A stretch of DNA of 38,936 nt from Emticicia sp. (GTDB lineage: Bacteria > Bacteroidota > Bacteroidia > Cytophagales > Spirosomataceae). How positions within the stretch are numbered: position 1 is the stretch's first letter; each line of letters begins with the position of its first letter. Below the pieces are notes generated by a model, which did no database searches, was not told the origin of the DNA, and worked only from the letters and a program-made list of their open reading frames with translations. Location: the NCBI GenBank assembly GCA_023254245.1, contig JALQYE010000014.1:1-38936 (forward strand), given 5' to 3'. The position numbers and the translations under genes are program-made. Below, one piece after another: positions 1,554-19,101 of the stretch.

Positions 1554-3011
1554 ATGAAAGCAGCAATAATTGGAGCAGGTATTGGAGGAATCGCAACGGC
1601 TATCCGTTTGGCCAATAAAGGCCAAGAAGTAGAGGTTTTTGAAGCAAATACCTATCCAGGCGGTAAACTGAGTGAATTTCAGCAAGGCGAATATCGGTTT
1701 GATGCAGGGCCTTCGCTTTTCACAATGCCACAGTTTGTTACCGAATTATTTGAGCTTTCGGGACGAAATCCTGCTGATTATTTTCAATACATCAAACTAC
1801 CTGAAGTTTGTCGATATTTTTGGGATGATGGTACAAGGCTGAATGTTTCGGCCGACATTAATGAATTTGCCAAAGATGCCGAAAAAAGCCTCGGCGAACC
1901 CGCCGAAAATATCATAAAATTCTTGAAAGAAGCCGCTTTTAAATATGACATTTTGAGTGGTCTTTTTCTCGAAGATTCTCTGCATAAAATATCTACCTGG
2001 ACATCGAAAAAGGCTTTCAGAGGATACCTAAATTTACCCAAATTGGGCATTTTTGGTACAATGAATCAGGCCAATGAGAACTTTTTTAAACAAGCAAAAG
2101 CCGTTCAGTTGTTCAATCGTTATGCTACTTATAATGGTTCTGACCCTTACCAAACACCAGCTACGCTCAATATTATTCCGCATTTAGAGTATAACGTTGG
2201 AGCATTTTTTCCGAAAGATGGCATGTTTGGTATCACGCAGAGTTTGGTCAATTTGGCAAAAGATTTAGGTGTAAAATTTCATTTTGGGGCGAAAGTTGAG
2301 GAAATTATTGTTAATGATAAATCAGTCAGCCATCTTAAAGTTAATAATCAAAATTGGGATTTTGACAAGGTCATTTCCAATATGGATGTTACGCCGACTT
2401 ACCGTAAGTTACTTCCTAAAGCTAAACATCCTGATAAAATTTTGAATCAAGCCAAAAGTGGTTCGGGGTTGATTTTTTATTGGGGCATCAAGAAAGAATT
2501 TAAGGAGCTGGGGCTGCACAATATCTTTTTCTCGAATGATTATAAGTCTGAATTTGAGCATCAGTTTCAGAAAAAAACGATTTATAAAGACCCAACAATC
2601 TATCTGAATATCACTTCAAAATACAAAAAAGATGATGCTCCAGAAGGCTGTGAAAATTGGTTTATCTTGCTCAATGCTCCAGCTAACGAAGGACAAGACT
2701 GGGACAAAATAATTGCCGAAGCTCGCCAAAACGTGATTGATAAATTGAGTCGAAATTTGGGCGTAAATGTGGGTGACTTGATTGAAAACGAGTCGATTCT
2801 TGACCCAAGGAGTATAGAAATGCGCACTTCTTCGGCACAGGGAGCTTTATACGGTAATAGTTCCAATAATAAATTTGCGGCATTCTTGCGTCATGCTAAT
2901 TTTTCGTCTGACATTAAAAATCTATATTTTGTGGGTGGCAGCGTTCACCCAGGTGGTGGGATTCCGCTGGCACTTTCATCAGCCAAAATTGTGGCTGATA
3001 TAATTGAATAG
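1554..3011 (+). CDS. crtD: Carotenoid desaturase of the CrtI/CrtD family (probably 1-hydroxycarotenoid 3,4-desaturase)
   Basis: A 485-residue FAD-dependent desaturase. The N-terminus carries the dinucleotide-binding motif G7-x-G9-x-x-G12 with an acidic residue at the end of the second strand (E30), followed by a PGGKL segment. The C-terminus has the family's FAD-binding block around residues 457-480 (YFVGGSVHPGGGIPLAL). The FDAGPSLFTMP segment near residue 56 recalls the CrtD branch in Bacteroidota, which adds a C3,4 double bond to hydroxylated carotenes in the membrane. No crtB, crtI, crtY or crtZ gene is in view, so the pathway must be elsewhere. CrtI (phytoene desaturase) is the main alternative. 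Family assignment is firm; the exact reaction is inferred from remembered sequence resemblance. Confidence 0.85.
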   Translation: MKAAIIGAGIGGIATAIRLANKGQEVEVFEANTYPGGKLSEFQQGEYRFDAGPSLFTMPQFVTELFELSGRNPADYFQYIKLPEVCRYFWDDGTRLNVSADINEFAKDAEKSLGEPAENIIKFLKEAAFKYDILSGLFLEDSLHKISTWTSKKAFRGYLNLPKLGIFGTMNQANENFFKQAKAVQLFNRYATYNGSDPYQTPATLNIIPHLEYNVGAFFPKDGMFGITQSLVNLAKDLGVKFHFGAKVEEIIVNDKSVSHLKVNNQNWDFDKVISNMDVTPTYRKLLPKAKHPDKILNQAKSGSGLIFYWGIKKEFKELGLHNIFFSNDYKSEFEHQFQKKTIYKDPTIYLNITSKYKKDDAPEGCENWFILLNAPANEGQDWDKIIAEARQNVIDKLSRNLGVNVGDLIENESILDPRSIEMRTSSAQGALYGNSSNNKFAAFLRHANFSSDIKNLYFVGGSVHPGGGIPLALSSAKIVADIIE

Positions 3012-4027: not shown

Positions 4028-5359
4028 TTATCCTCTCTTAAACTTCAACTCACATACATTTTTACCAATACGTTTGCCATTTCTCAGACCTTGTTCGTTG
4101 GAATTTCGGTAGTGAATACCTCCATAAAGACGAGAAAGGGCCGCTTCATCAGCAAATTCAAAGAAAGAATCGAATGAGCGTGGTTTAAAGCCTCTACCAG
4201 CGTGAGAGTTATCAGTGAAGCGGTAATTGAAGCCAAATAAATCGGATAATACTTGGGCAGTTGCTCCTGATACTGAGGCATGACCAGAAGTATATTCAGG
4301 AAAAGGTGGTGTATCGAGCAGGGGTGTCCATGTGCGGTCAATGGTAGTACGAATGTACGAAACTGGACGCAAAACATTGTGCATAAACTTACATTTCCAG
4401 CACGAAATAAACGCATCGGCGGCAGCAATGCCTACCTTACAAAAAACTTCAGCCGTACGGTCTAATTTAAGTTTTTCGGCTACAATAATTTGCGAAGCAA
4501 TCGAAACCGCATGGCCAGGTGGTGTAAAGGTCTTTCCAGCGTCATCTGACCAGTATTTGGCTATCGTGGCTTGTTCGGACGAAAGATTTTTCCCTGCACT
4601 ATACACCTCTAAGGCTTGTGAGTACATCACCGACGAAATACTGGCCTCACAACGTGGCGGTGTTGGTAATTCAAAATCAGCATCTCCCTTAACGAACGGA
4701 CGATTTTGCCCCCAATACGGTTGGAGAGGAATTTGTTGCTCGCCAGTGGGTGTCCAAACACAGGCACCAGTAACTCGCTTATAATCTTTCGGAAAATTCT
4801 TTTCGTAGCCTTCGTGTCCACCATCGCTTTTGGAATAATCGAACACCGCTTTGGCTACGGATTCGCCAAATTTGATAGAACGTAAGGCTGTTTCTTTATC
4901 GACATCATTTTGGTATTTTCGTTCAAAAAAACCTTTCAAAGAATCAATTTTTGCCAAGTTGGCTTTTGATGTATTGGCATAAAGACTCTTGACGATGGCA
5001 GCTTGGGCAGCATTCGCAGTCAGAATCCAGTGGTAGTTTTTTCCAGCTTCAATTTTTGGACTTGTCTTAAATTCATTTAAAAGGCCCACAAGTGATTGAT
5101 ATTCGGGCATTCCGTTGACCAACGATTCATAAAGTGTAAGACCCGCATAACCCAACGCTCTCGAAGCTACTGGGGGCGAAAAGCCAGGAGTTGTAGGAAT
5201 CAATCCTAATTGTAGATTAAACCATGCCACAGCCGCTTCATTTGAATACTCTTTGACGTTTTTTTGCGAGAAAGCCATTTCACACAAAAATACCATTAAG
5301 CTAAAAGCCAATATGCCTGTTTTTCTTAACTTGTTTGATATGTTTTGTTGAATAAGCAT
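4028..5359 (-). CDS. Secreted PAP2-family vanadium-dependent haloperoxidase-like protein (copy 1)
   Basis: The PAP2/haloperoxidase signature is present. Numbering from the longer start at 5365 (445 residues): KX6RP as K326-R333-P334, SGH as S360-G361-H362, and SRX5H as S411-R412-H418. The acidic residue that often follows (SRX5HX3D) is absent. The N-terminal hydrophobic segment ending near SQ at 33-34 looks like a signal peptide. These enzymes bind vanadate with the Lys/Arg/His set and oxidise halides with H2O2; phosphatases share the same pocket, so the activity is inferred. A start at 5359 is preferred because a canonical promoter (5363-5391) overlaps the ATG at 5365, though even this leaves almost no leader. 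It is a close paralogue of the next gene upstream, 5573-6946. Confidence 0.85.
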   Translation of the reverse strand: MLIQQNISNKLRKTGILAFSLMVFLCEMAFSQKNVKEYSNEAAVAWFNLQLGLIPTTPGFSPPVASRALGYAGLTLYESLVNGMPEYQSLVGLLNEFKTSPKIEAGKNYHWILTANAAQAAIVKSLYANTSKANLAKIDSLKGFFERKYQNDVDKETALRSIKFGESVAKAVFDYSKSDGGHEGYEKNFPKDYKRVTGACVWTPTGEQQIPLQPYWGQNRPFVKGDADFELPTPPRCEASISSVMYSQALEVYSAGKNLSSEQATIAKYWSDDAGKTFTPPGHAVSIASQIIVAEKLKLDRTAEVFCKVGIAAADAFISCWKCKFMHNVLRPVSYIRTTIDRTWTPLLDTPPFPEYTSGHASVSGATAQVLSDLFGFNYRFTDNSHAGRGFKPRSFDSFFEFADEAALSRLYGGIHYRNSNEQGLRNGKRIGKNVCELKFKRG

Positions 5360-5362
5360 AAT

Positions 5363-5391
5363 CAAATTTACGAATTGATTTCAGAAACAAA
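5363..5391 (-). promoter_or_regulatory. Promoter (TTTG-17-TAAATTTG) of haloperoxidase-like copy 1
   Basis: On the minus strand a -33 TTTG (5388-5391) and a -7 TAAATTTG (5363-5370) are separated by 17 bp, a full match to the Bacteroidota consensus. Transcription would begin only a few bases before the start codon at 5359, so the message may be nearly leaderless. Confidence 0.65.
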
Positions 5392-5418
5392 AAATTTTTG
5401 AATAAGTAGCCGTTACCA

Positions 5419-5447
5419 CCGATGGTACTTACAAAAGAAACCATCGG
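5419..5447. other. Intergenic hairpin between haloperoxidase-like copies 1 and 2
   Basis: CCGATGGT (5419-5426) pairs with ACCATCGG (5440-5447), and the stem extends by about four more base pairs across a one-base bulge. There is no T-run. It sits in the 213-bp gap between the two paralogues, just upstream of the copy 1 promoter, and could be a terminator relic or a repeat element. Confidence 0.45.
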
Positions 5448-5552
5448 GGTATCGGCAGAGCTTAAACAAAAATAAATTAAGAAATCATCGTGTATAAAAT
5501 CTTTGTTAGTCTATAGTTGATGGTCAACGGTCGATAGATTTTTTCTAAAGAA

Positions 5553-5567
5553 TGCCAACTCTTGGCA
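5553..5567 (-). terminator. Weak terminator candidate after haloperoxidase-like copy 2
   Basis: TGCCAA and TTGGCA form a 6-bp stem with a 3-nt loop. On the minus strand TTCTTT follows. It lies a few bases past the stop of the gene ending at 5573. Short stem, so only a candidate. Confidence 0.4.
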
Positions 5568-5572
5568 GTAGA

Positions 5573-6946
5573 CTATTTCGTGAATTTCAGTTTAAGAATA
5601 TTCTTTGCAATTTCCTTGCCATTCTTTTGCCCATTTTCATTGCCTTGTCGGTAATGTATTCCACCGTATAAGCGTGAAATGGTGGCTTCATTGGCATATT
5701 CGTAGAAAGACTTAAAGTTTCTGTCAGGATATTTGCCTGTATGAGTATTATCCGTGAATGCGTAGTTATCACCAAAGATGGATGTTAGTGCTTCGGAAGC
5801 TGCCCCCGAACCCGACGAGTGTCCCGACGAATATTCTGGAAATGGCGGAGTTGCCAACAATGGCGACCATTTTGGGTCAATTGCCTGACGAATGTATGTA
5901 ATAGGACGCATCAGATTATAGGTGTATTTACATCTCCAACACGAAATAAAAGCATCATTTACGGCCATTCCAACTTTGGCATATACTTCGGCTACTTTAT
6001 CGAGTTTTACCTTTTCTTTTTTCAAAACAATATTAGCAATATTGAAATGGTGTCCTGGCGGAGTAATTGTGCTTCCACCATCGGCCCAGAAATCGGCAAT
6101 AGCTTTTTGCTCGGCGGTCAGGGCCTTTCCTACATCATATACTTCTTTTGCGAGTTTAAACATATCAGAAGTTTCCTTGAATGAGAAAGAAACTGGAGCC
6201 GTTGGATTAGTGGTCATGTTTAATGAAGAAAAAGTACGATTTTCCCCCCAGTATGGCAGTAAAGGTATCTTTTGTGTAGCACTTGTTGGCTCCCACAAAC
6301 CAACACCTACTGGGACTTTATAATCAGTTGGGAAGTTATTACTCCAACCTTGGTGTCCACCATCAGTTTTTGAATATTCCCAAATCGCTTTACCGATTTC
6401 TGCTCCAAAAGCATTCGAACGGTCGGTAGTTTCCTGATTATCAATAGCTATACGAATAACACTTTCGATATTGCGACGCAACGAGTCAATGGCACGTTTA
6501 TTAGCATCATTGGTGGTTGTATACATTTCAGTAATCAAAGTACTGAGAGCAGCATTGGCCGCTAAACCCCAGTTATATTCTTTCGTAAGGTCGGGCTTAG
6601 GCAATGATGTAAGCCCATTTACTTGACCAACCAATGACTGATGATTTGGCATTCCATAAACCACACTTTCGTACAAAGCAAGGCTTGTATAACCCAACGT
6701 ACGGGCAGCTACTGGCGGAGCATAACCTGGAGTTGATTTGATAAGTTGAAGTTGTAAATCAGTCCAACGTGTAGCAATATCTGCATTAAAATCGCTTGTT
6801 GCTTTTGAGAGATTCGTTGGAGTTGGCTCTTCGATACTTTTATCCTTACAGGAGGTAAACAAAATAGCAGCTAAAATCACAAAAGCAAATGACCGAACAG
6901 CTATATAAAATTTCTTTTCGAAGAAATGTGTAGAACATTTTTCCAT
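5573..6946 (-). CDS. PAP2-family vanadium haloperoxidase-like lipoprotein (copy 2)
   Basis: With the start at 6946 the protein has 457 residues. It begins with a charged N-region, a hydrophobic stretch and the lipobox LFTSC, giving a lipidated Cys at 33 and an outer- or inner-membrane periplasmic lipoprotein. The vanadate/phosphate pocket is intact: KX6RP (K340, R347, P348), SSGH (373-376) and SRX5H (S424, R425, H431); Gln and Gly replace the following acidic position. It aligns along its whole length with copy 1, so the pair arose by duplication. An in-frame start at 7045 is rejected because the promoter at 7018-7046 overlaps it. The leader would be about 65 nt. Halide or substrate preference cannot be read from sequence. 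Confidence 0.87.
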   Translation of the reverse strand: MEKCSTHFFEKKFYIAVRSFAFVILAAILFTSCKDKSIEEPTPTNLSKATSDFNADIATRWTDLQLQLIKSTPGYAPPVAARTLGYTSLALYESVVYGMPNHQSLVGQVNGLTSLPKPDLTKEYNWGLAANAALSTLITEMYTTTNDANKRAIDSLRRNIESVIRIAIDNQETTDRSNAFGAEIGKAIWEYSKTDGGHQGWSNNFPTDYKVPVGVGLWEPTSATQKIPLLPYWGENRTFSSLNMTTNPTAPVSFSFKETSDMFKLAKEVYDVGKALTAEQKAIADFWADGGSTITPPGHHFNIANIVLKKEKVKLDKVAEVYAKVGMAVNDAFISCWRCKYTYNLMRPITYIRQAIDPKWSPLLATPPFPEYSSGHSSGSGAASEALTSIFGDNYAFTDNTHTGKYPDRNFKSFYEYANEATISRLYGGIHYRQGNENGQKNGKEIAKNILKLKFTK

Positions 6947-7017
6947 AATTATAACAATTAAAATTGTCGATTTCGTTAGATTCCTCAATGGTAACCATAA
7001 TAGAGCAATTACCTTGC

Positions 7018-7046
7018 CAAAGATAAGAACAAAACATAAACACAAA
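7018..7046 (-). promoter_or_regulatory. Promoter (TTTG-17-TATCTTTG) of haloperoxidase-like copy 2
   Basis: On the minus strand -33 TTTG (7043-7046) and -7 TATCTTTG (7018-7025) have a 17-bp spacer, the same geometry as the promoter of copy 1. The -33 element overlaps the end of the terminator hairpin at 7044-7077. Confidence 0.65.
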
Positions 7047-7077
7047 GTCCTTACAATCGACTGACTGTAAGGACTTT
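7044..7077 (-). terminator. Terminator after the gamma-carbonic-anhydrase-like gene
   Basis: A perfect 12-bp stem (7044-7055 with 7066-7077) closes a 10-nt loop. T-rich sequence follows on the minus strand, and a run of seven T follows on the plus strand, so it may work both ways. It separates the gene at 7149-7634 from haloperoxidase-like copy 2. Confidence 0.75.
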
Positions 7078-7148
7078 ATATTTTTTTAGTACCATTCAAT
7101 AACTTTATCAAAAATCATGCTAATTTACAAAAGTGCCTCCAGTTACTA

Positions 7149-7634
7149 TCAACGAATACGTGGATACTCTCCTAACTGATGTTTTTTTGCCATTTCTACA
7201 TAATGTGAAGCACTCATCAGAAGCTTTTCGGCATATTCGGGAGCAAGCTGTTTGACAATTTTTGCAGGTACCCCCAAGACCATAGAATAATCAGGAATAT
7301 CCATACCTTCGGTTACTAAAGCACACGCTCCGATAATGCAATACTTACCGATTTTTGCTCGATTTAAAATAGTAGAACGCATTCCAATGAGCGTACCATC
7401 ACCTACTATCGCACCATGAACGATTGCTCCGTGCCCAACGGTTACATCATCACCAATGATGGTTGGTTCGCCAAAATCGGCATGCAAAATTGCTCCATCT
7501 TGAATATTGGTGCGTTTACCGATTTGAACTTCTTCAACATCAGCACGAATAACGGCTGAATACCAAACCGATGAATCCTCGCCGAGCGTTACTCGGCCCA
7601 CAACGGTAGCATTGTCTGCAATAAAATTTGGCAT
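7149..7634 (-). CDS. Gamma-carbonic-anhydrase-family protein (left-handed beta-helix hexapeptide repeat)
   Basis: This 161-residue protein consists of hexapeptide repeats that form a left-handed beta-helix, as in YrdA/PaaY/CamH. The three zinc ligands of gamma-class carbonic anhydrases are present as H51, H68 and H73, along with R30, D32, Q45 and D46, which match the conserved active-site set of Cam. The acidic loop of Methanosarcina Cam is missing, as in the shorter CamH type. It has no signal peptide, so it is cytoplasmic and probably trimeric. Many relatives show little carbonic anhydrase activity, so the reaction (CO2 hydration) is likely but not certain. Terminators lie on both sides, suggesting a single-gene transcript. 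Confidence 0.92.
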   Translation of the reverse strand: MPNFIADNATVVGRVTLGEDSSVWYSAVIRADVEEVQIGKRTNIQDGAILHADFGEPTIIGDDVTVGHGAIVHGAIVGDGTLIGMRSTILNRAKIGKYCIIGACALVTEGMDIPDYSMVLGVPAKIVKQLAPEYAEKLLMSASHYVEMAKKHQLGEYPRIR

Positions 7635-7679
7635 CTGACTTATGATTTAAAAGTTTACTTTAATAGCACAAAATACCGA

Positions 7680-7727
7680 AAACTTCCCGAAAAATATGTA
7701 TTTTAAATCAAGTTTTTCGGGAAGTTT
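7680..7727 (-). terminator. Terminator after the TonB-dependent receptor gene
   Basis: A perfect 15-bp stem (7680-7694 with 7713-7727) has an 18-nt loop and begins 5 bp after the receptor stop codon. Stems flanked by A- and T-runs can act in both directions. Confidence 0.75.
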
Positions 7728-7731
7728 AAAA

Positions 7732-9909
7732 TCAAAAACGGGTAGAAACCGATACATTTAGGCTTCGGCCATCAGATGCCCAAATTCCAGGGCCAGGATA
7801 GAACTGCGGACGCTTCGTAAAGTACTGTTTATCAGCAGCATTATTGAGATTAAATTTAAGCAAAAGTTTGCTCGAAATTCGGTAAGTAGCATTGAAATCT
7901 AAGATACCGTAAGCAGGAACCAGTCCGACACTTCCGTTGGCCGACGGTTGAATGGTATTGAGGGCATCAGCGTAACTTTTGGCAGTGTAACTAAACAAAC
8001 TTGTAAGGCTTAGTTTTCTATAGCGGAAGGTTAGACCATTACGACTAATAACTTGTGGGGTACTTTCTACAAAGTTTCCTTTGATACTCACATTTTTTTC
8101 GCCCGAACGAATCTCAGCACTTAAATATCGGGCATCCATCAATGAATTTGACGTAAAAACTGAGAAATTAGCTTTTTCATTAATTCTCACGTAATATTCA
8201 GCAAACATTTCCAATCCTTTCGTAAATGAATCGCCGATATTGGTACGTAAAATTTGGAAAATTCCGTTTTCGTCAGTCTGTGCCAAAGTTCCGAGTCGGT
8301 TTTTGTAAAGCAACTGAAAATACGTTAGTTCGAGTCTTAGTGTTTCAAAATTCCCTCTATACCCCACTTCCAAGTTATATCCGCTGGCGTCTTTCAGATT
8401 ATCAGAAGATTTCTCGTAAATAGATGCAGGAATAATATCTTTAAAAATCACAGGTCGATATGCTTGTGAGAAACCAGCATAAAGATTTTGGTTAGAATTG
8501 AGCTGATAATCAGTATTTAAGCCAAACAATGGAAAACGGTGTGGAATGGCATCGGGAAATTTTGAAGCATCATAATAACTAATCATACCCGACATGCGAG
8601 ATTCACCCGATTCGATTCTGAAACCTGGTGAAACTGCAAATTTTGACATAAGATAAATACGATTTTCTACAAAAAAGGCAATATTTTGTGTTTTGAAATG
8701 CAAATCACGCCCCCAGTTTCCTACGATACTCAAGTCAAAATCGCTTCCTGTTGTTCCTTTTCCTTGCTGACGACGGTGTAAATCATTATTCATCAGTTGT
8801 ATGCCTCCTACTAAAGTTGATGGTAGCTTCCCGACACTATATTCGTGCAAAACACGCAATTCAGAAGTATAGCTGTGATAATTATCAATATCCACTTGAC
8901 GGTTGGCGTATTGGAGCGTAACAGGGTCTATTTTATCAATAACATCAGCGGTTTTATCAAACATTACACTGTTTCGGCTACCCAAAACTGCCGATGTCAC
9001 CCACGAAAGTTTCGTACGATTTCCCAAAGACCAATTGAACGCAACCGACGGCACATAAATATCAGGGCTATAAAAATTTCTTGAACGAATAGAAGCTCTT
9101 GGATTAGCCGCAAACATGGCATCGGTTTGCTGGCCTGCCAACTGAAAAACGTATTTTGAGTGTGATAAATCGGCTTTTATTGATAGATTTTGGCTCGGAC
9201 GATACGTGATTTGTGTCGAAAAAGCATCGTAATTACTACGGCTATTATCACGATAACCATCAGAAACTCGTTTGCTGTAATAGGCATAATAATTCAGCTT
9301 ACCGACTTGTCCACCAACGGCATTGTAGGTACTCAATAAACCAAATGAACCTACACTATTAGTGCTTTCAAAAGCAATAACCTTGGTCGAATCGCCCTGT
9401 TTTGCTACATAATTGAGCATTCCACCAAATTGTGAGCCGTATTGTAGCGAACCAGTTCCACGTACTAACTCAATGTTTTGAATAGCCTCCATGGGCATAG
9501 AATAGTGGCTGGCAGGATAACCATACATATCGGTATTGGTAATTACTCCATCTTTGCGTATATTAAACTCCCAGCCACGATGCGGGTCAAGTCCACGAGT
9601 TGATATATTGATTTGATTTCCTGAGCCATCCATATCATAGACAAAAACACCAGGTACTTTTGCAAAAATTTGACGTGGAGTTTTTTCGGCAATATTGGCA
9701 TCTAAACCTTGTACATTAATCATTTCGGTCTTTTTCCCACCATAAAGGAAAGTTCCTTTTGTAGTTGGAAGGCTCTGAATATTACATTTAAATTGTTGTT
9801 CTCGAACCTGCACTTCTTCCAATTTCAATACTTTTGTAGAGTCTGATTCGTGTTGAGCAAAAGCCGTAAAAGGTAATAAAAGCCAAAGTATATAAATAAT
9901 TTTTTGCAT
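7732..9909 (-). CDS. TonB-dependent outer-membrane receptor, FecA-like
   Basis: From the start at 9909 the protein has 725 residues: a signal peptide ending at AFAQ, a plug domain over roughly the first 150 mature residues (RGLDPHRGWEF, then ELVRGTGSLQYGSQFGG), and a 22-strand-type barrel ending in aromatic Phe, the usual barrel-assembly signal. The plug resembles ferric dicitrate receptors. It lacks the long SusC-type N-terminal carboxypeptidase-like domain, so it is more likely a metal or siderophore receptor than a glycan importer. An in-frame start at 9945 is possible but puts extra charged residues before the signal peptide. It is the last gene of the 14862-7732 run. A role in supplying metal to the neighbouring haloperoxidase-like proteins is speculation from context. 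Confidence 0.92.
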   Translation of the reverse strand: MQKIIYILWLLLPFTAFAQHESDSTKVLKLEEVQVREQQFKCNIQSLPTTKGTFLYGGKKTEMINVQGLDANIAEKTPRQIFAKVPGVFVYDMDGSGNQINISTRGLDPHRGWEFNIRKDGVITNTDMYGYPASHYSMPMEAIQNIELVRGTGSLQYGSQFGGMLNYVAKQGDSTKVIAFESTNSVGSFGLLSTYNAVGGQVGKLNYYAYYSKRVSDGYRDNSRSNYDAFSTQITYRPSQNLSIKADLSHSKYVFQLAGQQTDAMFAANPRASIRSRNFYSPDIYVPSVAFNWSLGNRTKLSWVTSAVLGSRNSVMFDKTADVIDKIDPVTLQYANRQVDIDNYHSYTSELRVLHEYSVGKLPSTLVGGIQLMNNDLHRRQQGKGTTGSDFDLSIVGNWGRDLHFKTQNIAFFVENRIYLMSKFAVSPGFRIESGESRMSGMISYYDASKFPDAIPHRFPLFGLNTDYQLNSNQNLYAGFSQAYRPVIFKDIIPASIYEKSSDNLKDASGYNLEVGYRGNFETLRLELTYFQLLYKNRLGTLAQTDENGIFQILRTNIGDSFTKGLEMFAEYYVRINEKANFSVFTSNSLMDARYLSAEIRSGEKNVSIKGNFVESTPQVISRNGLTFRYRKLSLTSLFSYTAKSYADALNTIQPSANGSVGLVPAYGILDFNATYRISSKLLLKFNLNNAADKQYFTKRPQFYPGPGIWASDGRSLNVSVSTRF

Positions 9910-9985
9910 GATTTTCTCTTTAAATTCCATAGTAAAACATGGCAAAACCCTTCAAAAGGCTTACCTATTGATAAAATTTATTGTT

Positions 9986-10543
9986 TTAAGCTATTGAATA
10001 GATAGGCGGCGGAGCATTAACCGATTGAGGGGTGTTGTAATAGAAGGTGTTGATGAAAAAATTGCGACAAGGCAAGTCTTCTATCTTAAACCAAACCAAC
10101 ATTTTTGAGCGAAGTTCGACATAATCTTTCGCAAGATGCTTAGAAAACTCTAATGCTTTTTGGCTGGTAGTTTTATTTTTTTCTGAGAAAAGGTTCAGGT
10201 TTTCGTGTACTTCATTCATCAAAGCCATGATATTATCTCGGCTCAAATCAAGTCTTTTGTAGTAAGTATAGAGCGTGTCGCCTCGGTAAACCTGTTCGTA
10301 AGACTTATAAAATTCGCCTTCAAAAATAGCAGTGTTACCGTCAATAAGTTCATTTTTCCACTCTGATTGATAGGGTAACGACAACTGCATTTTAAAAACT
10401 AATTTATCGCCTTCAACCTCTACAAAACTTGTAGCTTTTACTCGATGCCCTTCCTGCCATTCATTCAACAAAAAAATGAACGTAAAGCCCAGTGCATTAC
10501 AAAACAATAGGCCAAGAAGTACTATGGATACCAGTTTTTTCAG
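9986..10543 (-). CDS. Membrane-anchored or secreted protein of unknown function, probable non-AUG start
   Basis: I do not recognise this family. No ATG gives a sensible N-terminus: the first usable conventional start is TTG at 10507. The frame is open up to a stop at 10547-10549, and the residues from CTG at 10543 read KKLVSIVLLGLLF, a classical signal-anchor start. Starting there gives 185 residues with one N-terminal membrane segment (about 2-27), then a soluble domain rich in charged and aromatic residues with a helical middle and a Pro-rich C-terminus. A CTG start, or an unseen frameshift upstream, are the two explanations. It lies 76 bp before the TonB receptor gene on the same strand and may be co-transcribed with it. 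Confidence 0.6.
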   Translation of the reverse strand: MKKLVSIVLLGLLFCNALGFTFIFLLNEWQEGHRVKATSFVEVEGDKLVFKMQLSLPYQSEWKNELIDGNTAIFEGEFYKSYEQVYRGDTLYTYYKRLDLSRDNIMALMNEVHENLNLFSEKNKTTSQKALEFSKHLAKDYVELRSKMLVWFKIEDLPCRNFFINTFYYNTPQSVNAPPPIYSIA

Positions 10544-10600
10544 AAATTATATCGAAAGTAATTTCACAAAACTAACAGAATTTTATCAGTCTTGCGGGAG

Positions 10601-10664
10601 TTTTAGCAAAGAATGTAATAAAACCAACAAAAAAACATGAGTTTTGTCACATTCTTTACTAAAA
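10601..10664 (-). terminator. Long hairpin after the second beta-barrel gene
   Basis: TTTTAG plus AAAGAATGT (10601-10616) pairs with ACATTCTTT plus CTAAAA (10649-10664), 15 pairs with one mismatch and a 32-nt loop. It lies 16 bp beyond the stop of the barrel gene. There is no clear T-run on the minus strand, so it could also be an RNA-stability element. Confidence 0.45.
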
Positions 10665-10680
10665 TCAGCTTCGGTATAAT

Positions 10681-11742
10681 TTAGAAGCGATAGGCGTAAG
10701 TAGCCGTAACAAAGTAATCAGCAAAGGCAGCATCACCTTCTTTAAAGCCATTGGCTGTCCAAGTTGGGATACGATTTCTAACTACCGCATAAGGAGCAGC
10801 TACCAAGAAAGAGCTATGATGTCCGCTCCAGATAATACCAGGTTCAACCGAAACGATATATCCAGGGCGACGAGAACCCGCACTTCCACCGATTGCATCA
10901 ACCGCAGGAAGACCCTCAACACGACCACCTAAACTAACTGCAATATTCTTTTTAGGGAAAAGACCGTAAGTCATACCTACACGTCCACCAAATTGGTCAG
11001 GAACAGAAAGATTGGTTAATGTATTTAACTCTTTTGGGCTAAATAAATAAAAACCATTGAAGTACAAATTAGCCTTTTTAAACAAAGAATAATATCCTTG
11101 AACTTCGATGCTTTCGCCCCAACCGCTATCACCTAATTGAATTGATTGGTCAACGGCCTTTACCTGAATATATTCTTTTTTATCTTTATCCAGTTTATGG
11201 AACTCATCTTGCACATTGGCATTGCCCGTTGGGGCTTTAATTCCTACACCTATGGCGATATTACCCTTAAGATGAGTCATTGGATTAAACAACCAATAAG
11301 AAGCCGATAAACGCATATCTCCTACTCCTTTTGATTGTGTATGAAAACGAGGATTTGAGCCCGCAGGAGTGCCGTTGCCGTAATGTTCATAAAGCGACGA
11401 GCGGTCGTTGTACGAAAGTGGTACATTGAGTGTCACGTTAAAACGGTCAGTAACGGCATAAGTAAGGCCAAAATCGAAGTTATATGAATCGTTGATAACC
11501 TCAGTGTGTTGTTCAACACGTTGTTTTTGCTCTACTGTACCTACAAAATGCTTGTAAGAATGGAGTTTTCTGAAATTGGTCGATAACTGAAAATCGCCTT
11601 TGTGCATAAAGGCCGAACCGCTCGGGTTTCCGTTGGCGGTGGCCATCGAACGAACTGCAATACAACCTTGTGCAAAAGCACTCGGTGTGAAAGCACCCAA
11701 AACAACCATAAGAAGAGCTGTTGATAGTAATAGTTTTTTCAT
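10681..11742 (-). CDS. Outer-membrane beta-barrel protein, transporter-like (MetA-pathway/porin type)
   Basis: A 353-residue protein with a clear signal peptide (MKKLLL start, cleavage after AFAQ near residue 25) and then alternating polar/apolar strands with Gly-rich turns, ending in YAYRF with a terminal Phe. It resembles proteins annotated as putative phenol-degradation MetA-type outer-membrane proteins (PF13557-like); the match is by look, not by search. A single Cys follows the signal peptide. It starts 30 bp after the SnoaL-like gene, so the two share a message. A role in passage of small molecules across the outer membrane is plausible; the substrate is unknown. Confidence 0.75.
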   Translation of the reverse strand: MKKLLLSTALLMVVLGAFTPSAFAQGCIAVRSMATANGNPSGSAFMHKGDFQLSTNFRKLHSYKHFVGTVEQKQRVEQHTEVINDSYNFDFGLTYAVTDRFNVTLNVPLSYNDRSSLYEHYGNGTPAGSNPRFHTQSKGVGDMRLSASYWLFNPMTHLKGNIAIGVGIKAPTGNANVQDEFHKLDKDKKEYIQVKAVDQSIQLGDSGWGESIEVQGYYSLFKKANLYFNGFYLFSPKELNTLTNLSVPDQFGGRVGMTYGLFPKKNIAVSLGGRVEGLPAVDAIGGSAGSRRPGYIVSVEPGIIWSGHHSSFLVAAPYAVVRNRIPTWTANGFKEGDAAFADYFVTATYAYRF

Positions 11743-11772
11743 GATTTCTGCGTTTTTTTGGTTAAAAAGTAT

Positions 11773-12219
11773 TTATTTTTTTTCTGGAAAAGCCGAAACG
11801 TGTTGCTCGATAATCAGCCATTTTCCGCCACGTTTTTCAAAGACAAATAGATAGCGAACGGGCTTTTTTTCTCTTACGCCATCGGCATTATTTACATCAA
11901 AAATCCAAGTTCCTGAGCAAGTAGCCACATCGTTGAATAATCTCACTCGTTGGTCATTATTGAGCGTTGCCGATGGCTTTTTATCGACGAGAGTCTGCAA
12001 AAATGATTTTCTCTCATCGGCTGTGCTGGCGGCATTTATAAAAGTCGGAAAGAACACGGCATCGCTGGCATATTGAGCCATTAGGCCATTCAAATCACCT
12101 TTTACTAAACCAACGTGCCACTGCACAATTTGCTGTTCAATCTCTTGCTTGGCTGTTGCTTGTGCAAAAACATTCGCACCAGCTATCAGCAGGCTTATCA
12201 ATAAAAATAACTTTTTCAT
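11773..12219 (-). CDS. Secreted SnoaL/DUF4440-like protein
   Basis: The start at 12219 gives 148 residues with a signal peptide (cleavage near AFAQ/VFAQ at about 19), then a cone-shaped alpha+beta domain of the NTF2/SnoaL type: an amphipathic helix (EIEQQIVQWH), a second helix with the family's YASDAVF segment, and a curved sheet ending in KWLIIEQHVS. Such domains bind small ligands; some are enzymes, many are not. The secreted location, between a haloperoxidase-like protein and a barrel, is unusual for the cytoplasmic polyketide cyclases of the family. An in-frame start at 12261 is rejected because it would put a polar stretch before the signal peptide and would be translated from the hairpin at 12247-12280. 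Confidence 0.8.
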   Translation of the reverse strand: MKKLFLLISLLIAGANVFAQATAKQEIEQQIVQWHVGLVKGDLNGLMAQYASDAVFFPTFINAASTADERKSFLQTLVDKKPSATLNNDQRVRLFNDVATCSGTWIFDVNNADGVREKKPVRYLFVFEKRGGKWLIIEQHVSAFPEKK

Positions 12220-12246
12220 AATTTTGGAAAAGGAAAGTCTAATAGC

Positions 12247-12280
12247 ATCCTTATCCGTCAACTTTCTGACGAATAAGGAT
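12247..12280 (-). other. Intercistronic hairpin between haloperoxidase-like copy 3 and the SnoaL-like gene
   Basis: ATCCTTAT and CGTCA (12247-12260) pair with TGACG and ATAAGGAT (12267-12280), 13 pairs with one mismatch and a 6-nt loop. No T-run follows on the minus strand, so read-through is expected. It may set relative expression of the upstream and downstream genes or protect the message. Confidence 0.55.
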
Positions 12281-12314
12281 ACTTGTATTGTACAAAGCAG
12301 TTTAAAAAAATGGA

Positions 12315-13859
12315 TTAGTAACCCGAACCATCGGCTTTGCCACGAGCAATGGCATAATCACCGATTTTCTTACCATGCACTAAGCCCATTTCGCAATCAA
12401 CTCGGTAATGAATCAATCCATATACACGGGAGTTTGAAGCTTCTTTTGCTTGTTCATCAAATTTGCTGGCCTGGTCTGGGAAAATACTTGACAGTACCGT
12501 TGCCGCTGCTGATGAAAAAGTTGAGTGTCCTGATGTATAGGAAGGGAAATTTGGTAAACCTACTGATGTTTTTACGCCAAATTGTTGCGGACGTGGAGTA
12601 TAATAATAATACTTGGTTTCCCAACAAGCAATACCAGCGTCCATGAGTGCGGTTCCGACTAAGGCTAATGTACGAGCCATACGAACTTCGCTATATTTGG
12701 CTTCATGAGCAGCATTTGCGGCAGTACGGTGCCAATGACCTGGAGGGGTGTAACTACCTGCACCGTCAGCCCAATAGTTTGCAATACGTGCTTGCTCACG
12801 AGTTTGATTTTTTTCGATTACTTTCAGCTCATCAATATCTTTCTGAAACTCAGCCGAATTCTCTAAATAAGGAATAATTGGGCGAATTTTTTCGAGTGTT
12901 GGTCTATCAAAGTTCCAAGTAGTAACTGCTCCGTAGTTTGGCAACATCGGCGGACGAGCAGGTGTTTCTTGACTTACCCATGGGTTTTTCACGCCAATTT
13001 TCTTGGCATTTTCAACCATCCCTGCAGTCAATGCTTGGTTGTTAGCGGCACTCATACCGTCAACTTTTGCTTTTGCCATGATTTTTGCCCCAACAGCTTT
13101 ACCAAGTGCATCACCTGCTGTAATGTCGCTCGGCACATTTGCACCTGCCCAAACTCTTGCGTTTTTAGCTTCAGCCAATTTTGAATCTAAATATGGCACT
13201 TCACCTGGAAACATCGCAACTAAAATGGTATAAGATGCCGCTGCAACAACAGCATCTTCGGAAGGATAAGACGGTAAGTCTGAAACTGGCAATAAAGCTG
13301 AGATTGAGGCATCGTTTTTAGACGGTGCTTTACGATTGTATTTGTATTTGTAGTTCCAAGCACTCACCAAAGCATCGTATTGTGCTACGCTTAAATAAGC
13401 TAAAGCACGAGCGGTGTAGGGAGGATTGGCAAACGGGAATTTTGGGTCAGCTAAAGGATTAGCCGCATCAGGAACTGGGTATTTACCTTCGGCATTGGCT
13501 GCTGGAGCGAGGTTATACCTTGCAGCCAATTCACGAGCAATTTCGTTCCAACGATATACCGATCCTGCTCCCCAATAGACTACCGCTTTTTTATTTTCGG
13601 CCGTAACAGCTGGAAGAATTTTGTTTTTTAATGAATCTATCTCTTTCAGATAAGCGGCATCGTTTGAAGCTTTTGGTGCAGCTACTGGCACTTCGTTTGC
13701 AGAGCCTAAAACGTATGTTTTCCAAGTACCTGCTTTTTCGTCCAGACTAACAGGAACATACGCTTCTTTTACTGGTTCGGTAATGGTCTTATCGCAAGAT
13801 AAAAGTCCTCCAATTCCTAAAGGGATAGTAATTATGATATATTTAAGTATATTTTTCAT
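12315..13859 (-). CDS. PAP2-family vanadium haloperoxidase-like lipoprotein (copy 3)
   Basis: A 514-residue lipoprotein: hydrophobic N-terminus and lipobox GLLSC (Cys 22). It carries the most complete PAP2 signature of the three: KX6RP (K416, R423, P424), SGH (443-445) and full SRX5HX3D (S477, R478, H484, D488). It is more distant from copies 1 and 2 than they are from each other. The N-terminal half (about 140-265) looks like a degenerate second PAP2 domain, with PSYPSED at the position of PSYTSGH and a matching GKAVGAK helix. Known haloperoxidases also contain two related helical bundles with only one active site. The activity could be halide oxidation or phosphate-ester hydrolysis. It is 85 bp downstream of the first barrel gene and 95 bp upstream of the SnoaL-like gene. 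Confidence 0.87.
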   Translation of the reverse strand: MKNILKYIIITIPLGIGGLLSCDKTITEPVKEAYVPVSLDEKAGTWKTYVLGSANEVPVAAPKASNDAAYLKEIDSLKNKILPAVTAENKKAVVYWGAGSVYRWNEIARELAARYNLAPAANAEGKYPVPDAANPLADPKFPFANPPYTARALAYLSVAQYDALVSAWNYKYKYNRKAPSKNDASISALLPVSDLPSYPSEDAVVAAASYTILVAMFPGEVPYLDSKLAEAKNARVWAGANVPSDITAGDALGKAVGAKIMAKAKVDGMSAANNQALTAGMVENAKKIGVKNPWVSQETPARPPMLPNYGAVTTWNFDRPTLEKIRPIIPYLENSAEFQKDIDELKVIEKNQTREQARIANYWADGAGSYTPPGHWHRTAANAAHEAKYSEVRMARTLALVGTALMDAGIACWETKYYYYTPRPQQFGVKTSVGLPNFPSYTSGHSTFSSAAATVLSSIFPDQASKFDEQAKEASNSRVYGLIHYRVDCEMGLVHGKKIGDYAIARGKADGSGY

Positions 13860-13944
13860 CTTTCTAATTTAAGCTTTTGCTTGTTTTATTATTGTAGAGA
13901 AAGAGCGGCCAATACCTCGACTATCCTCTCTACACTTATCTTTT

Positions 13945-14862
13945 TTACTTCTTTTCGCTTTTCTTAAAATAATTTATTTGATACAACAAACCAACCGAAT
14001 AACTAAACGATTGTCCGACATTTAAGCCATCAATTACTTTAGCGATACGTACATTAAGTCCGACATTTTTAGGTTGATATTTTCCGTAAAAACCTACGCT
14101 TGTCGCAGTCATATTGTTAGTCGGAAAAGGCATATCATTACGACGAATATTATCACCACCTACGCAAGAAAACTTATCAACAAATGCCTCTGCTTGAATT
14201 CGGCTACCATCTTTGATATAACCTAATCTTAAAGCAACATCAGTAGCATTTGGTATACGTACTTCATTAGTATTATACACGCGGTTATCAGCCTGATAAG
14301 CATCACGGTCAACTTTGATATTGCTACGATACATATAACTGGCGTGAGCAGTAATATATAAACCCGATTTGTGGGTATAATTACCGATTAAACGACCAGT
14401 GACAGTTTTGGCTTGTAGACCGATTGACATTGGAAGAAAGTCAGGCACGTAATTCCCGACAGGAGTAGATGCACCTAATACACCATGTAACGATAAGCCT
14501 TTATCGTTTTTAACTAATTCGTATTTCAACCAGCCCGATAAATCTTGTATTCCTTTTTGCCCCATGAGGTTTCCTGCACTGGCTTTGGTTTGTACGTAAG
14601 GAAGACCTACAATGACGTTTAATTTATCAGTGAGCCCAACTGCCAACATTGGCATTACAGATTCGGTTGAGAGTGTGCCAATATTAAGGTTTTCACGCTT
14701 GAGGGTATTTTCCCAGTATTCTTTCCAACTGCTATTGTTGTAAGACACTGCCAAACATGCCGTCTTTTTTGGCATATAAATCACATCATGCGGCATTTGT
14801 GCATAGACACTTGAAGTTACGCACACCAATCCAAGTAGTGCGTATCGGAGCATTGTTTTCAT
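13945..14862 (-). CDS. Outer-membrane beta-barrel protein, transporter-like
   Basis: From the start at 14862 the protein has 305 residues: a signal peptide (MKTMLRYALLG..., cleavage after VYAQ near 22) and a barrel-like body with repeated alternating strands. It contains segments such as LTDKLNVIVGLPYVQ that parallel LTYAVTDRFNVTLNVPLSY of the barrel at 10681-11742, so the two are probably distant members of one family. A start at 14853 is also possible. A longer frame to 14958 is rejected since it adds residues before the signal peptide. This is the first gene after a 370-bp regulatory gap holding two TTCC-N8-GGAA elements, and probably heads the message that contains haloperoxidase-like copy 3. 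Confidence 0.75.
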   Translation of the reverse strand: MKTMLRYALLGLVCVTSSVYAQMPHDVIYMPKKTACLAVSYNNSSWKEYWENTLKRENLNIGTLSTESVMPMLAVGLTDKLNVIVGLPYVQTKASAGNLMGQKGIQDLSGWLKYELVKNDKGLSLHGVLGASTPVGNYVPDFLPMSIGLQAKTVTGRLIGNYTHKSGLYITAHASYMYRSNIKVDRDAYQADNRVYNTNEVRIPNATDVALRLGYIKDGSRIQAEAFVDKFSCVGGDNIRRNDMPFPTNNMTATSVGFYGKYQPKNVGLNVRIAKVIDGLNVGQSFSYSVGLLYQINYFKKSEKK

Positions 14863-15232: not shown

Positions 15233-15997
15233 TTAGCCAATTAGCTTCATGAAATCTTTCTGAAAACTATCGCCAACTGGAATGCTATTTTTACCAATAA
15301 AAATTCGTTGACGCTCAATCGTTTCTATTTTTTCGAGCGAAACAATATAAGATTTATGTACCCGCACGAAACGATTCGAGGGCAACATTTCTTCCATTTT
15401 TTTCATGGTTTGCAGCGTCAGAATTCGTTCGGTGGTGGTGTAAATGGATACGTAATCTTTCAAACCTTCAAGATAAAGAATATCCGACAGATTGATTTTC
15501 TGAATTTTGTACTCGGTTTTTACAAAGACGAAGTCGAGTTGCAGTCGAGAAGTTTGAGTTGAAGCATTGGAACTTTCTGAATGCTCATTACCAACAGCAG
15601 GCTGAAAACTGCCTACTGAAGACTGCTCACCGATAACCGACAAATGCCCTACTGCCTTCTGAACGGCCTTTAAGAAACGCTCAAACGAAATGGGTTTCAA
15701 CAAATAATCAGCCACATCGTATTCATAGCCTTCGAGGGCATATTCTGAGTAAGCCGTTGTTAGAATTGTCTTACATTTGCCGTTCATGACTCGCAAAAAT
15801 TGGATGCCCGTGAGCGTAGGCATCTGAATATCCAAAAACAATAAATCAACCTTTCCTTGCTGAATCAAGCTCAATGCTTCCAAAGGCTCGGTGCAGGTAG
15901 CCACAAGGCTAAGATTGGGCGTTTTTCCTATATAATTTGCCAAAATAGCAAGAGCCAACGGCTCATCATCAACGGCAAGGCAGCGGATTTTTTCCAT
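15233..15997 (-). CDS. LytTR-family response regulator
   Basis: The 254-residue protein has a receiver domain (1-115; D10/D11, phospho-acceptor D56, K101) and a C-terminal LytTR DNA-binding domain (about 155-254, with the RVHKSYIVSL and GKNSIPVG motifs). It binds direct repeats in promoters after phosphorylation, in this group usually by a LytS-type kinase. The start is 5 bp after the stop of the kinase gene at 16003, so the two form an operon. The linker (about 117-150), rich in Ser, Gln and Gly, is longer than usual and its DNA resembles an intergenic repeat. Targets are unknown; the downstream barrel/haloperoxidase genes are candidates by position only. Confidence 0.95.
   Translation of the reverse strand: MEKIRCLAVDDEPLALAILANYIGKTPNLSLVATCTEPLEALSLIQQGKVDLLFLDIQMPTLTGIQFLRVMNGKCKTILTTAYSEYALEGYEYDVADYLLKPISFERFLKAVQKAVGHLSVIGEQSSVGSFQPAVGNEHSESSNASTQTSRLQLDFVFVKTEYKIQKINLSDILYLEGLKDYVSIYTTTERILTLQTMKKMEEMLPSNRFVRVHKSYIVSLEKIETIERQRIFIGKNSIPVGDSFQKDFMKLIG
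15555..15665. repeat. Low-complexity repeat inside the LytTR regulator linker
   Basis: Recurring blocks of the type CTGCCTACTGAAGACTGC and CCGATAACCGAC run through this part of the gene and encode the Ser/Gln/Gly-rich linker. Similar stutters of ACTG/CAGT words occur in intergenic spacers of Cytophagales, from memory; the identity as an inserted repeat is inferred. Confidence 0.4.
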
Positions 15998-16002
15998 TAG
16001 TT

Positions 16003-17031
16003 TCAGAGAATCAAATTCAATTCACAAAAGTAGACTTCTTTTGTATCTTCAATATCTAAACTATACTGATTTGGGTAAATTAAATCTAATCGTCGGCGAA
16101 CATTTTCCAGTCCAACTCCTCCTACTTCATCTTTATTTTGGTCTTTTTTGAAGTTTTGTACCGTAAAATTCAAGTTATTCTGATTCAATAAAAGGCTGAT
16201 GCTGAGCGGTTTATTTTCGATACTTACTTCGCCGTGTTTGAAGGCATTTTCAACAAAAGCAATCAATAACAAGGGAGCCATCTTCTGCGAATGTAAATCG
16301 CCCGCCACTTGAAAATCAATGTAGGTTTGGCCTGAATAACGAAATTTTTGCAATTCAACGAAGTTCTTCAAATACTTTACTTCGGTTTCGAGATTTATCT
16401 TTTCTACATTCGATTCATAAAGCATATATCGCATTAATTCCGATAATTTCAATACTGCTTCGGGGGCTTTTGGCGATGCCGTAAGTGTAAGCGAATAGAT
16501 ATTATTGAGGGTATTAAATAAAAAATGAGGGTTCAATTGACTTTTCAGAAAGGCTTGTTCGGCATTGAGTTTTTCGGTCAAGAGTGCGTTTTTTTCTTTT
16601 TCATTTTTAAAGAAATCTTCAATCATTTTAATGAAAAAAGCAGTAAATGAAAATGAAATCACATTGTAGATATTATCGGTAATGTAATAGGGCAAACGAC
16701 GTGACTCTTCGGAGTAATTATGAAAGCCAAACCATTTGAAAAATAATACCTCTTCAAGAGCATAGCGTAGTCCAACGTAAATGAAGCAAACAGCCAAGAA
16801 AGCAATAACTAATTTTAAATATTGCTTTTTATCGAAAAAACGATTGAAAACAAACAATATCAAATAGCTAACCAATACCTTGAAAAACAGTGTACTATAA
16901 ATGAGCGGATTGCTATACTTTTGGGTATCAAACTGGTAATTTCTATCGCCTAAAAAAGCCAGAATGTCGCCCGTAAAATACAATAATAACCAAAAAGAAA
17001 TATGAAATATGATACGTCTGCGTTTGCTCAT
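16003..17031 (-). CDS. LytS-type sensor histidine kinase (His_kinase family)
   Basis: From the start at 17031 the protein has 342 residues. The first about 140 hold four or more hydrophobic membrane segments with no recognisable periplasmic sensor. The His_kinase domain follows, with phospho-acceptor H169 in the QLNPHFLFNTLN motif and an ATPase with the N-box VENAFKHG and a VGLENVRRRL glycine-rich motif. It would phosphorylate the LytTR regulator encoded 5 bp downstream. The signal is unknown; membrane-embedded sensing is implied. A longer frame to 17088 is less likely since SKRRRI then FHISFWLLL makes a natural membrane N-terminus. Two hairpins lie in the leader. Confidence 0.95.
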   Translation of the reverse strand: MSKRRRIIFHISFWLLLYFTGDILAFLGDRNYQFDTQKYSNPLIYSTLFFKVLVSYLILFVFNRFFDKKQYLKLVIAFLAVCFIYVGLRYALEEVLFFKWFGFHNYSEESRRLPYYITDNIYNVISFSFTAFFIKMIEDFFKNEKEKNALLTEKLNAEQAFLKSQLNPHFLFNTLNNIYSLTLTASPKAPEAVLKLSELMRYMLYESNVEKINLETEVKYLKNFVELQKFRYSGQTYIDFQVAGDLHSQKMAPLLLIAFVENAFKHGEVSIENKPLSISLLLNQNNLNFTVQNFKKDQNKDEVGGVGLENVRRRLDLIYPNQYSLDIEDTKEVYFCELNLIL

Positions 17032-17040
17032 TGTGGTGTA

Positions 17041-17062
17041 GCACAAGTTTTTTAATTTGTGC
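17041..17062. repeat. Hairpin repeat in the kinase leader (GCACAA ... TTGTGC)
   Basis: Six-base arms enclose a T/A-rich loop, 10 bp upstream of the kinase start codon. It resembles the hairpin at 32632-32652. Confidence 0.5.
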
Positions 17063-17090
17063 AGGTTTGGAAATGGTTTTAACCTCAACT

Positions 17091-18651: not shown

Positions 18652-19014
18652 ATGGAAGAACTCACAAAAACAGAAGAACGCATCATGCAAATCATTTGGG
18701 ATTTGGAACGATGCCTCGTGAAAGATATTATCGAGCAAATACCCGATGAGCCTAAGCCACCGTATAATACGATTTCGTCGGTGGTACGGCTACTCGAAAG
18801 CAAGGGTTTTGTGAGCTACAAGGCTTATGGCAAGACCTACGAGTATTTTCCTGTAATATCGAAAGAAGAATACGGCAAACGCACTTTCAAGAAAGTATTT
18901 GCCGATTATTTCGATAATTCAGTAGAAAACCTCCTTTCGTTTATGGCAAAGGAGGAAAATCTGACGGTAGAGGAGATTGAAGAGTTGAAGAAGATAATAC
19001 CCCCCCGCCAGTAA
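18652..19014 (+). CDS. BlaI/MecI/CopY-family transcriptional repressor
   Basis: A 120-residue protein with an N-terminal winged helix (about 1-75: LTKTEERIMQIIW start, then PYNTISSVVRLLESKGFV recognition region) and a C-terminal dimerisation helix. In BlaI the repressor is cut within this C-terminal part by the protease encoded next door. The membrane M56 protein follows after 87 bp, the classical sensor/repressor pair. The last residues (IIPPRQ) and the stop codon are encoded by a run of C and adjoining repeat DNA, see the repeat at 19003-19101. No beta-lactamase gene is nearby, so the regulon is probably different from antibiotic resistance. Confidence 0.93.
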   Translation: MEELTKTEERIMQIIWDLERCLVKDIIEQIPDEPKPPYNTISSVVRLLESKGFVSYKAYGKTYEYFPVISKEEYGKRTFKKVFADYFDNSVENLLSFMAKEENLTVEEIEELKKIIPPRQ

Positions 19015-19101
19015 CGACTGCCGCCCTAAAGGGGAGCTAAAAAGTATTCACGAGAATAATATATTGTAACATTTTAAACTCCCCTTTAGGGGCTGGGGGT
19101 T
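19003..19101. repeat. REP-like inverted repeat between the repressor and protease genes
   Basis: CCCTAAAGGGGAG (19024-19036) is repeated in inverted form as CTCCCCTTTAGGG (19079-19091), each followed outward by a C- or G-rich run (CCCCCCC at 19003-19009; GGGGG at 19095-19099). Each arm is itself nearly palindromic. This is the layout of a paired REP element (REPIN). It supplies the end of the repressor gene and abuts the protease start. Confidence 0.7.

Follow-up and report, generated by a model that had tools for sequence, protein, structure and literature searches.

Do the genes around three vanadium haloperoxidase (VHPO)-like proteins in an Emticicia sp. genome form a single system and, if so, what would that system do? 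The cluster lies on contig JALQYE010000014.1 of assembly GCA_023254245.1, a draft of 4.6 Mb split into 531 contigs; we analysed bases 1–38936 of this contig (the window, 38,936 nucleotides). The original prediction saw in it a set that might couple metal or oxyanion uptake to periplasmic halogenation or quorum quenching, or else release phosphate for uptake. Comparison with relatives narrows the fixed part to two adjacent genes, which encode a predicted outer-membrane barrel (OMPa) and the third VHPO-like copy (P3). We give roughly even odds (a probability of about 0.5) to the reading that they form a two-protein outer-membrane unit, in which a lipoprotein VHPO with its own barrel oxidises a halide or an organic substrate.

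13945..14862, minus strand: OMPa, predicted outer-membrane barrel and constant partner of P3 (open reading frame from 14958; ATG at 14862 the likely start)
12315..13859, minus strand: P3 (copy 3), VHPO-fold lipoprotein of 514 amino acids (lipid-site Cys22; W413, K416, R423, S443, G444, H445, R478, H484)

The case for the pair starts from 148 genomes, the window's own included, which were searched with P3, OMPa and the small cluster protein UNK and the results compared. We counted as strong the 93 OMPa matches with E values down to 3.2e-72 and the 100 P3-type matches down to 5.1e-71. Left out were the weaker P3 rows and 12 weaker OMPa rows (1.2e-28 to 7e-4), some of which fall in genomes with no strong P3-type match (G100, G117). 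Every strong OMPa gene (93 of 93, in 85 genomes) stands directly upstream of a P3-type gene on the same strand, with a median gap of 87 bp and a largest gap of 321, and OMPa is present beside 93 of the 100 strong P3-type genes (87 genomes). One of the seven others is at a contig edge (G035), and six belong to a sister lineage (L123–L128) in which the P3 relative sits beside an SSF symporter; the active site is altered in two of those six.

A phylum sample of 395 genomes contained OMPa at 1e-20 in 39, eight of them already in the first set. Among the 31 further genomes, 23 have a strong OMPa, always with an adjacent P3 (23 of 23; gaps of 5–88 bp), and eight have only weak matches (1.4e-39 to 3.8e-21) with no P3 alongside, which look like another barrel family. 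The gap between strong and weak OMPa matches is wide in both sets (3.2e-72 versus 1.2e-28 in the 148 genomes, and 7.9e-60 versus 1.4e-39 in the phylum sample). Distances among OMPa sequences follow those among P3 sequences (Spearman 0.92 over 80 pairs), a value that shared descent alone would also give. At 23 loci whose P3 is less than 60% identical to the window's, and with six cluster families set aside (PAP2, OMPa, UNK, OMPb, receptor and SnoaL), only 7 of 246 neighbours come from a family that the window also has. That the OMPa–P3 pair stays fixed while its other neighbours change is well supported.

The AlphaFold2 model of P3 has a predicted local distance difference test score (pLDDT) of 94.3 and a predicted template-modelling score (pTM) of 0.92. 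Used as a Foldseek query, it finds VHPO-family proteins in all 17 top places. Vanadium iodoperoxidase (VIPO; 6.8e-14, 407 columns) comes first, and NapH3, XhnO11, NapH1 and fungal vanadium chloroperoxidase (VCPO) also stand ahead of any phosphatase. Acid phosphatases follow with about 200 aligned columns, against at least 400 for the VHPOs; the predicted model has the VHPO fold over its full length. The best PDB match by sequence is 4cit, which we take to be the Zobellia enzyme (3.3e-15 with the single sequence, 1.2e-29 with a profile). In Pfam, PAP2 is the sole family above its cut-off in P3 (4.8e-12). P3 and P2, the second VHPO-like copy, both miss the cut-offs of the VCPO domains: VCPO_2nd reaches 19.9 bits on P3 against 27, with a match at E 0.001 in 5 of 47 P3 members, and VCPO_N reaches 25.6 bits on P2 against 29.3. 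Because these model names point to the VCPO branch, the shortfall lowers the case for VCPO membership, not that for the VHPO fold.

The vanadate-binding and catalytic set (Lys, Arg, Ser, Gly, His, Arg and the axial His) is complete in P3, as it is in P1 and P2 of the window. The eight active-site positions (W413, K416, R423, S443, G444, H445, R478 and H484) are invariant in the 47 P3-type sequences of alignment A1, which omits two degenerate copies, and the site is intact in 64 of 66 P3-type sequences, the two exceptions being degenerate second copies. W413 and F438 align with Trp and Phe of 4cit, and with Met and Gly of the acid phosphatase 7f17; their VCPO counterparts, W350 and F397, presumably line the halide site. 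The lipobox of P3 reads GLLS-C, and Cys occupies position 22 in 88 of 90 rows, the remaining two being L031, a fragment beginning within the gene, and L043, a distant relative. The gene pair, the lipobox, the fold and the residues are well supported by computation, the lipoprotein VHPO fold on the strength of a predicted model. Haloperoxidase chemistry, one of the options in the original prediction, is favoured by that fold and those residues as the probable activity.

The pair is also duplicated as a pair in eight of the genomes looked at. In seven of them, from two genera (L065, L067, L118–L122), the second pair has a degenerate enzyme: SGH is altered in 7 of 7 copies, Arg478 is lost in 7 of 7 and His484 in 6 of 7, with Cys22 and an open frame kept. 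The OMPa beside these copies has Ser at position 68 in all seven. In the eighth genome (G037, L075), the active site of the second pair is intact. A strict link between Cys68 of OMPa and an intact P3 site was dropped, because Trp, Ala, Thr or Val takes that position in four OMPa proteins whose neighbouring P3 is intact (L075, L132, L133, L134). They leave a hint of joint change in OMPa and P3, not a rule.

The rest of the cluster is less constant. Transcription, all from the minus strand, runs in the order OMPa, P3, SnoaL-like, OMPb, UNK, TonB receptor, gamma-carbonic-anhydrase-like, P2 and P1, with an esterase-like alpha/beta hydrolase gene 3' of P1. The remaining features are as follows.

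11773..12261, minus strand: SnoaL/CaMKII_AD-like secreted protein, an accessory at 5 of 68 loci
10681..11742, minus strand: OMPb, the other predicted barrel and a frequent partner, at 35 of 68 loci
9986..10543, minus strand: UNK, small protein with a predicted N-terminal membrane helix and a C-terminal PPP tail (probable CTG start)
7732..9945, minus strand: FecA-like TonB-dependent receptor, an optional partner at 20 of 68 loci
7149..7634, minus strand: gamma-carbonic-anhydrase-like hexapeptide protein (158 bits, cut-off 250)
5573..6946, minus strand: P2 (copy 2), VIPO-like VHPO, predicted lipoprotein (open reading frame opens at 7045)
4028..5365 (also given as 4028–5359), minus strand: P1 (copy 1), VIPO-like VHPO without a lipobox
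15233..17088, minus strand: genes for a LytTR response regulator and a histidine kinase, upstream of OMPa; possible regulator

The genes first named for this cluster (three VHPO-like proteins, two likely barrels, the SnoaL-like protein, UNK and the FecA-like receptor) are all present on one strand. The gamma-carbonic-anhydrase-like gene between the receptor and copy 2 had been missed, and the start of UNK is revised to a probable CTG at 10543. Across 68 loci, we counted SusC-like receptors in 21, AhpD-like carboxymuconolactone decarboxylase (CMD) proteins in 16, DUF3179 in 16 and gamma-carbonic anhydrase in 8; the counts for OMPb, the receptor and SnoaL are 35, 20 and 5. Some genomes contribute two of the 68 (for example, L041 and L049), and five of the loci (L043–L047) come from outside Bacteroidota and have no OMPa. 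Genes were called by a longest-open-reading-frame script, which overlooked OMPa at three loci (L062, L066, L071) and the PAP2 gene at two (L045, L066), all found by other searches. The idea of one system survives the refuting condition set in the original prediction for copy 3 and its upstream barrel, OMPa never occurring without P3 among the 93 and 23 strong cases. We rejected the whole cluster as a single fixed system.

Copies 1 and 2 are likewise optional. P1 scores 26.0 bits against PAP2 (8.7e-06; cut-off 27.2) and 28.4 bits in a six-frame search. P2 matches VCPO_N (1.3e-05) and PAP2 (1.4e-04) below both cut-offs, and its best PDB match is 4cit at 1e-71, an entry titled as the first bacterial vanadium iodoperoxidase; P3 reaches 4cit at only 3.3e-15 and so forms a separate branch from P2. 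The export signals foreseen for all three proteins were judged by eye or from the lipobox pattern: P3 and P2 (LFTS-C, lipoprotein-like) each have a lipobox, and P1 has none and resembles an ordinary signal-peptide protein. In at least 14 of 85 genomes, spread over five genera, a P1/P2-type VHPO is encoded no more than 10 kb from P3, where a crude estimate that assumes 6.2 Mb genomes and random placement would predict about 0.4; seven of the 14 belong to the window's genus and share descent. The three-enzyme cluster is therefore not unique to the window, although most P1/P2-type genes listed sit elsewhere in their genomes. The conserved neighbourhood that the original prediction proposed to look for in relatives thus comes down to the OMPa–P3 core. 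The copy-2 gene of genome G005 (L051:2382-3705) consists of two short separate frames and looks broken.

OMPa and OMPb are predicted outer-membrane barrels, on weak sequence evidence. OMPa of the window resembles Phenol_MetA_deg below the cut-off (0.0072; 16.8 bits against 22), as 10 of 38 OMPa relatives do at E 0.01; profile searches of the PDB gave no match up to E 1, and Pfam found no plug or TonB-receptor domain in the 38 members. OMPb matches FapF at 1.3e-06, far below the cut-off, and a terminal Phe is present in 34 of 34 OMPb sequences longer than 300 amino acids (family of 36). The receptor matches FecA in the PDB (1pnz, 6.3e-20), but at 91 bits it stays so far under the NCBIfam FecA equivalog cut-off of 1100 that we call it FecA-like only.

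Upstream, among the loci laid out, the LytTR/histidine kinase pair adjoins OMPa only in the window and in L021, a 98% relative, and was set aside as a general regulator of the system. P3 itself is 98% identical to an Emticicia aquatilis protein by sequence comparison. Positions 18652–21867 hold a BlaI-like repressor and then a BlaR1-type M56 peptidase of 921 amino acids, and a pair of this type is also close to the cluster in some relatives. Just past the cluster, on the plus strand, lies a flavin amine-oxidase-family gene (1554–3011; 4.7e-21). The SSF, RecR, ClpS and DnaG genes that relatives have close to P3 were taken as housekeeping neighbours. Between UNK and the receptor, some relatives encode a small DUF417/DoxX protein (L041:13444-13890) with a weak likeness (22 bits against 275) to RclC, a reactive-chlorine protein. 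In two Opitutaceae metagenome-assembled genomes (L044, L046), a VHPO-type gene is flanked closely on both sides by FG-GAP/ASPIC-UnbV-type genes.

UNK may connect the pair to a wider set of genes. At least 67 of 87 genomes have it no more than 8 kb from P3, and all 53 copies examined for it have PP among their final 14 residues. A sub-threshold Pfam match was found in 1 of 39 members, and no PDB sequence match fell under 0.2. The model of a relative (L069) is weak (pLDDT 71.7), showing an N-terminal helix of about 37 residues, and it yielded no fold match under E 0.001. We hand-picked 20 loci (L088–L107) from UNK matches not beside P3, one of which, L106, is about 10 kb from a P3. There, by eye, a CMD, VCBS, OMPb, VHPO, TonB-receptor or SusC-like gene comes after UNK on the same strand for 22 of 23 copies; the kinds of module in relatives are CMD/SusC/MFS, VCBS, OMPb/TonB/DoxX and VHPO. 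No shared operator upstream of UNK is claimed, these regions having been inspected by eye only. The motif E-x11-CxxC-x3-H, presumably the AhpD pattern, is present in 31 of 41 CMD proteins, and two scanned CMD proteins pass the NCBIfam cut-off for peroxidase-related enzymes. No CMD gene lies in the window's cluster, and the 16 of 68 loci noted above are those with AhpD-like proteins. These observations suggest that the UNK-headed modules may form a family of envelope modules around peroxide chemistry.

How might such a unit work? A functional partnership of OMPa and P3 can reasonably be inferred, and P3 with OMPa probably carries out peroxide/halide oxidation. P3 would be exported, receive a lipid at Cys22 and be held by an anchor in the outer membrane, perhaps on the outward side. 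The OMPa barrel, with its conserved N-terminal segment, could offer P3 a docking site or small substrates and products a passage. Vanadate would be bound at H484, together with K416, R423, S443–G444, R478 and H445, and P3 with H2O2 would yield an oxidised halide or organic substrate, the product acting on cell-surface molecules. OMPb and the TonB receptor, where present, may import products or a needed ligand, and UNK may be a membrane-anchored accessory or signalling protein common to other modules. Docking, orientation, vanadate, halide chemistry, uptake and the role of UNK are the parts that we infer. More broadly, and held tentatively at somewhat below even odds, OMPa–P3 could be an undescribed Bacteroidota oxidation unit within a wider UNK-headed set (VHPOs, AhpD-like proteins and SusC-like/TonB receptors) that performs envelope peroxide/halide chemistry, the second enzyme of the duplicated pair being kept as a pseudoenzyme in some lineages.

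Several observations weigh against an oxidising unit of this kind. PAP2 phosphatases have the pattern K-x6-RP, PSGH and SR-x5-H-x3-D, and P3 has it complete as K-x6-RP / SGH / SR-x5-H-x3-D (most rows having TSGH rather than PSGH), Asp488 included in 66 of 66; the counterpart of Asp488 is missing in VIPO and in copies 1 and 2 of the window. With the VHPO set and the full phosphatase motif both in P3, its activity is not readable from sequence. Identity to VIPO is only about 22% in the fold alignment, the algal bromoperoxidase is a poor match far down the list (1.8e-02), the PDB title of 3bb0 speaks of vanadium-free chloroperoxidase in dephosphorylation, and the title for NapH3, which ranks high among the fold matches, names a rearrangement as the catalysed reaction. 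No H2O2 source was clearly recognised within the cluster. Outside Bacteroidota, a single P3-like gene was seen (L043, Deinococcales, 33%), and it lacks both OMPa and the lipid cysteine. Furthermore, the OMPa profile (A3) derives from copies that adjoin P3, so that more distant barrels score weakly; at most 15 (148-genome set) or 5 (phylum sample) candidates per genome were scored.

The phosphatase motif is the core of one alternative, in which P3 is an outer-membrane PAP2-superfamily phosphatase that frees phosphate or an alcohol and the barrels import the product. The Pfam result and the place of acid phosphatases directly after the VHPOs in the P3 profile and fold searches speak for it too, but the span of the fold alignment, the VIPO-like rather than 7f17-like W413 and F438, and the lack of any phosphate-uptake or Pho gene above cut-off among the scanned neighbour proteins make it unlikely. 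Should the fold be that of a VHPO and the reaction a selective, non-halogenating or substrate-specific one, the gene set could instead serve the uptake and breakdown of aromatic or humic matter. NapH3 among the top fold matches would agree with this, as would the weak resemblance of both barrels to Phenol_MetA_deg and the neighbour modules of relatives, with an MFS protein (best NCBIfam match, an aromatic-acid symporter family), CMD-family proteins and SusC-like receptors. The MFS match, however, reaches 162 bits against a cut-off of 418.55, the MFS/CMD/SusC modules are not in the window's cluster, and the porin likeness of the window's OMPa, being below cut-off, is uninformative on substrate; we regard this account as rather improbable. 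That the genes are independent neighbours held together by shared descent, with no joint function, would suit the variable content of the cluster (SnoaL, receptor and OMPb in 5, 20 and 35 of 68 loci) and the scatter of P1/P2-type genes. For OMPa–P3 it is largely refuted by a pair that stays fixed where nearly all other neighbours differ and that was duplicated as a pair in eight genomes, and as a general account it is very improbable. Metal or oxyanion uptake as such, quorum quenching and phosphate scavenging found no pointer among our results, no dedicated test of them having been made.

If the two-protein oxidation unit is real, surface halogen/peroxide chemistry would be a common built-in trait of the window's family, in which 75 of 90 genomes have a strong OMPa, and would occur in other Bacteroidota as well. 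It would then matter for halogen cycling and for the way these bacteria deal with their neighbours or organic matter, with OMPa a concrete candidate partner for VHPOs of unassigned role. Among the matches listed in the open literature, we found no published description of the OMPa–P3 pair and no described function for the OMPa or UNK families. Passages in the literature propose that secreted VHPOs elsewhere alter the signals of other microbes (PMC8407465) and that haloperoxidases deal with oxidative stress (PMC4926216). Either role would fit OMPa–P3.

Among known systems, the SusCD-type pairs of Bacteroidota share the arrangement of barrel and lipoprotein: SusC/SusD are an outer-membrane barrel and a lipoprotein whose genes stand together (PMC12611786). 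The likeness is one of layout only, because the 38 OMPa members have no plug or TonB-receptor domain and P3 has an enzyme fold. Class A acid phosphatases (7f17, PhoN, PhoC) share the PAP2 catalytic pattern, Asp included, but their match is confined to the C-terminal part of P3. Fungal VCPO and NapH1/NapH3/XhnO11 match the P3 model over its full length, at 14–18% identity; to our knowledge, they are not lipoproteins with a barrel partner. The closest relative is the Zobellia galactanivorans vanadium iodoperoxidase (4cit/4usz), the top PDB match of P2 and P3 and the top fold match of P3, with the same active-site set. P3 differs from it in its low identity (about 22%), in having Asp488 where VIPO has Ala, in a longer N-terminal part and in being tied to a barrel.

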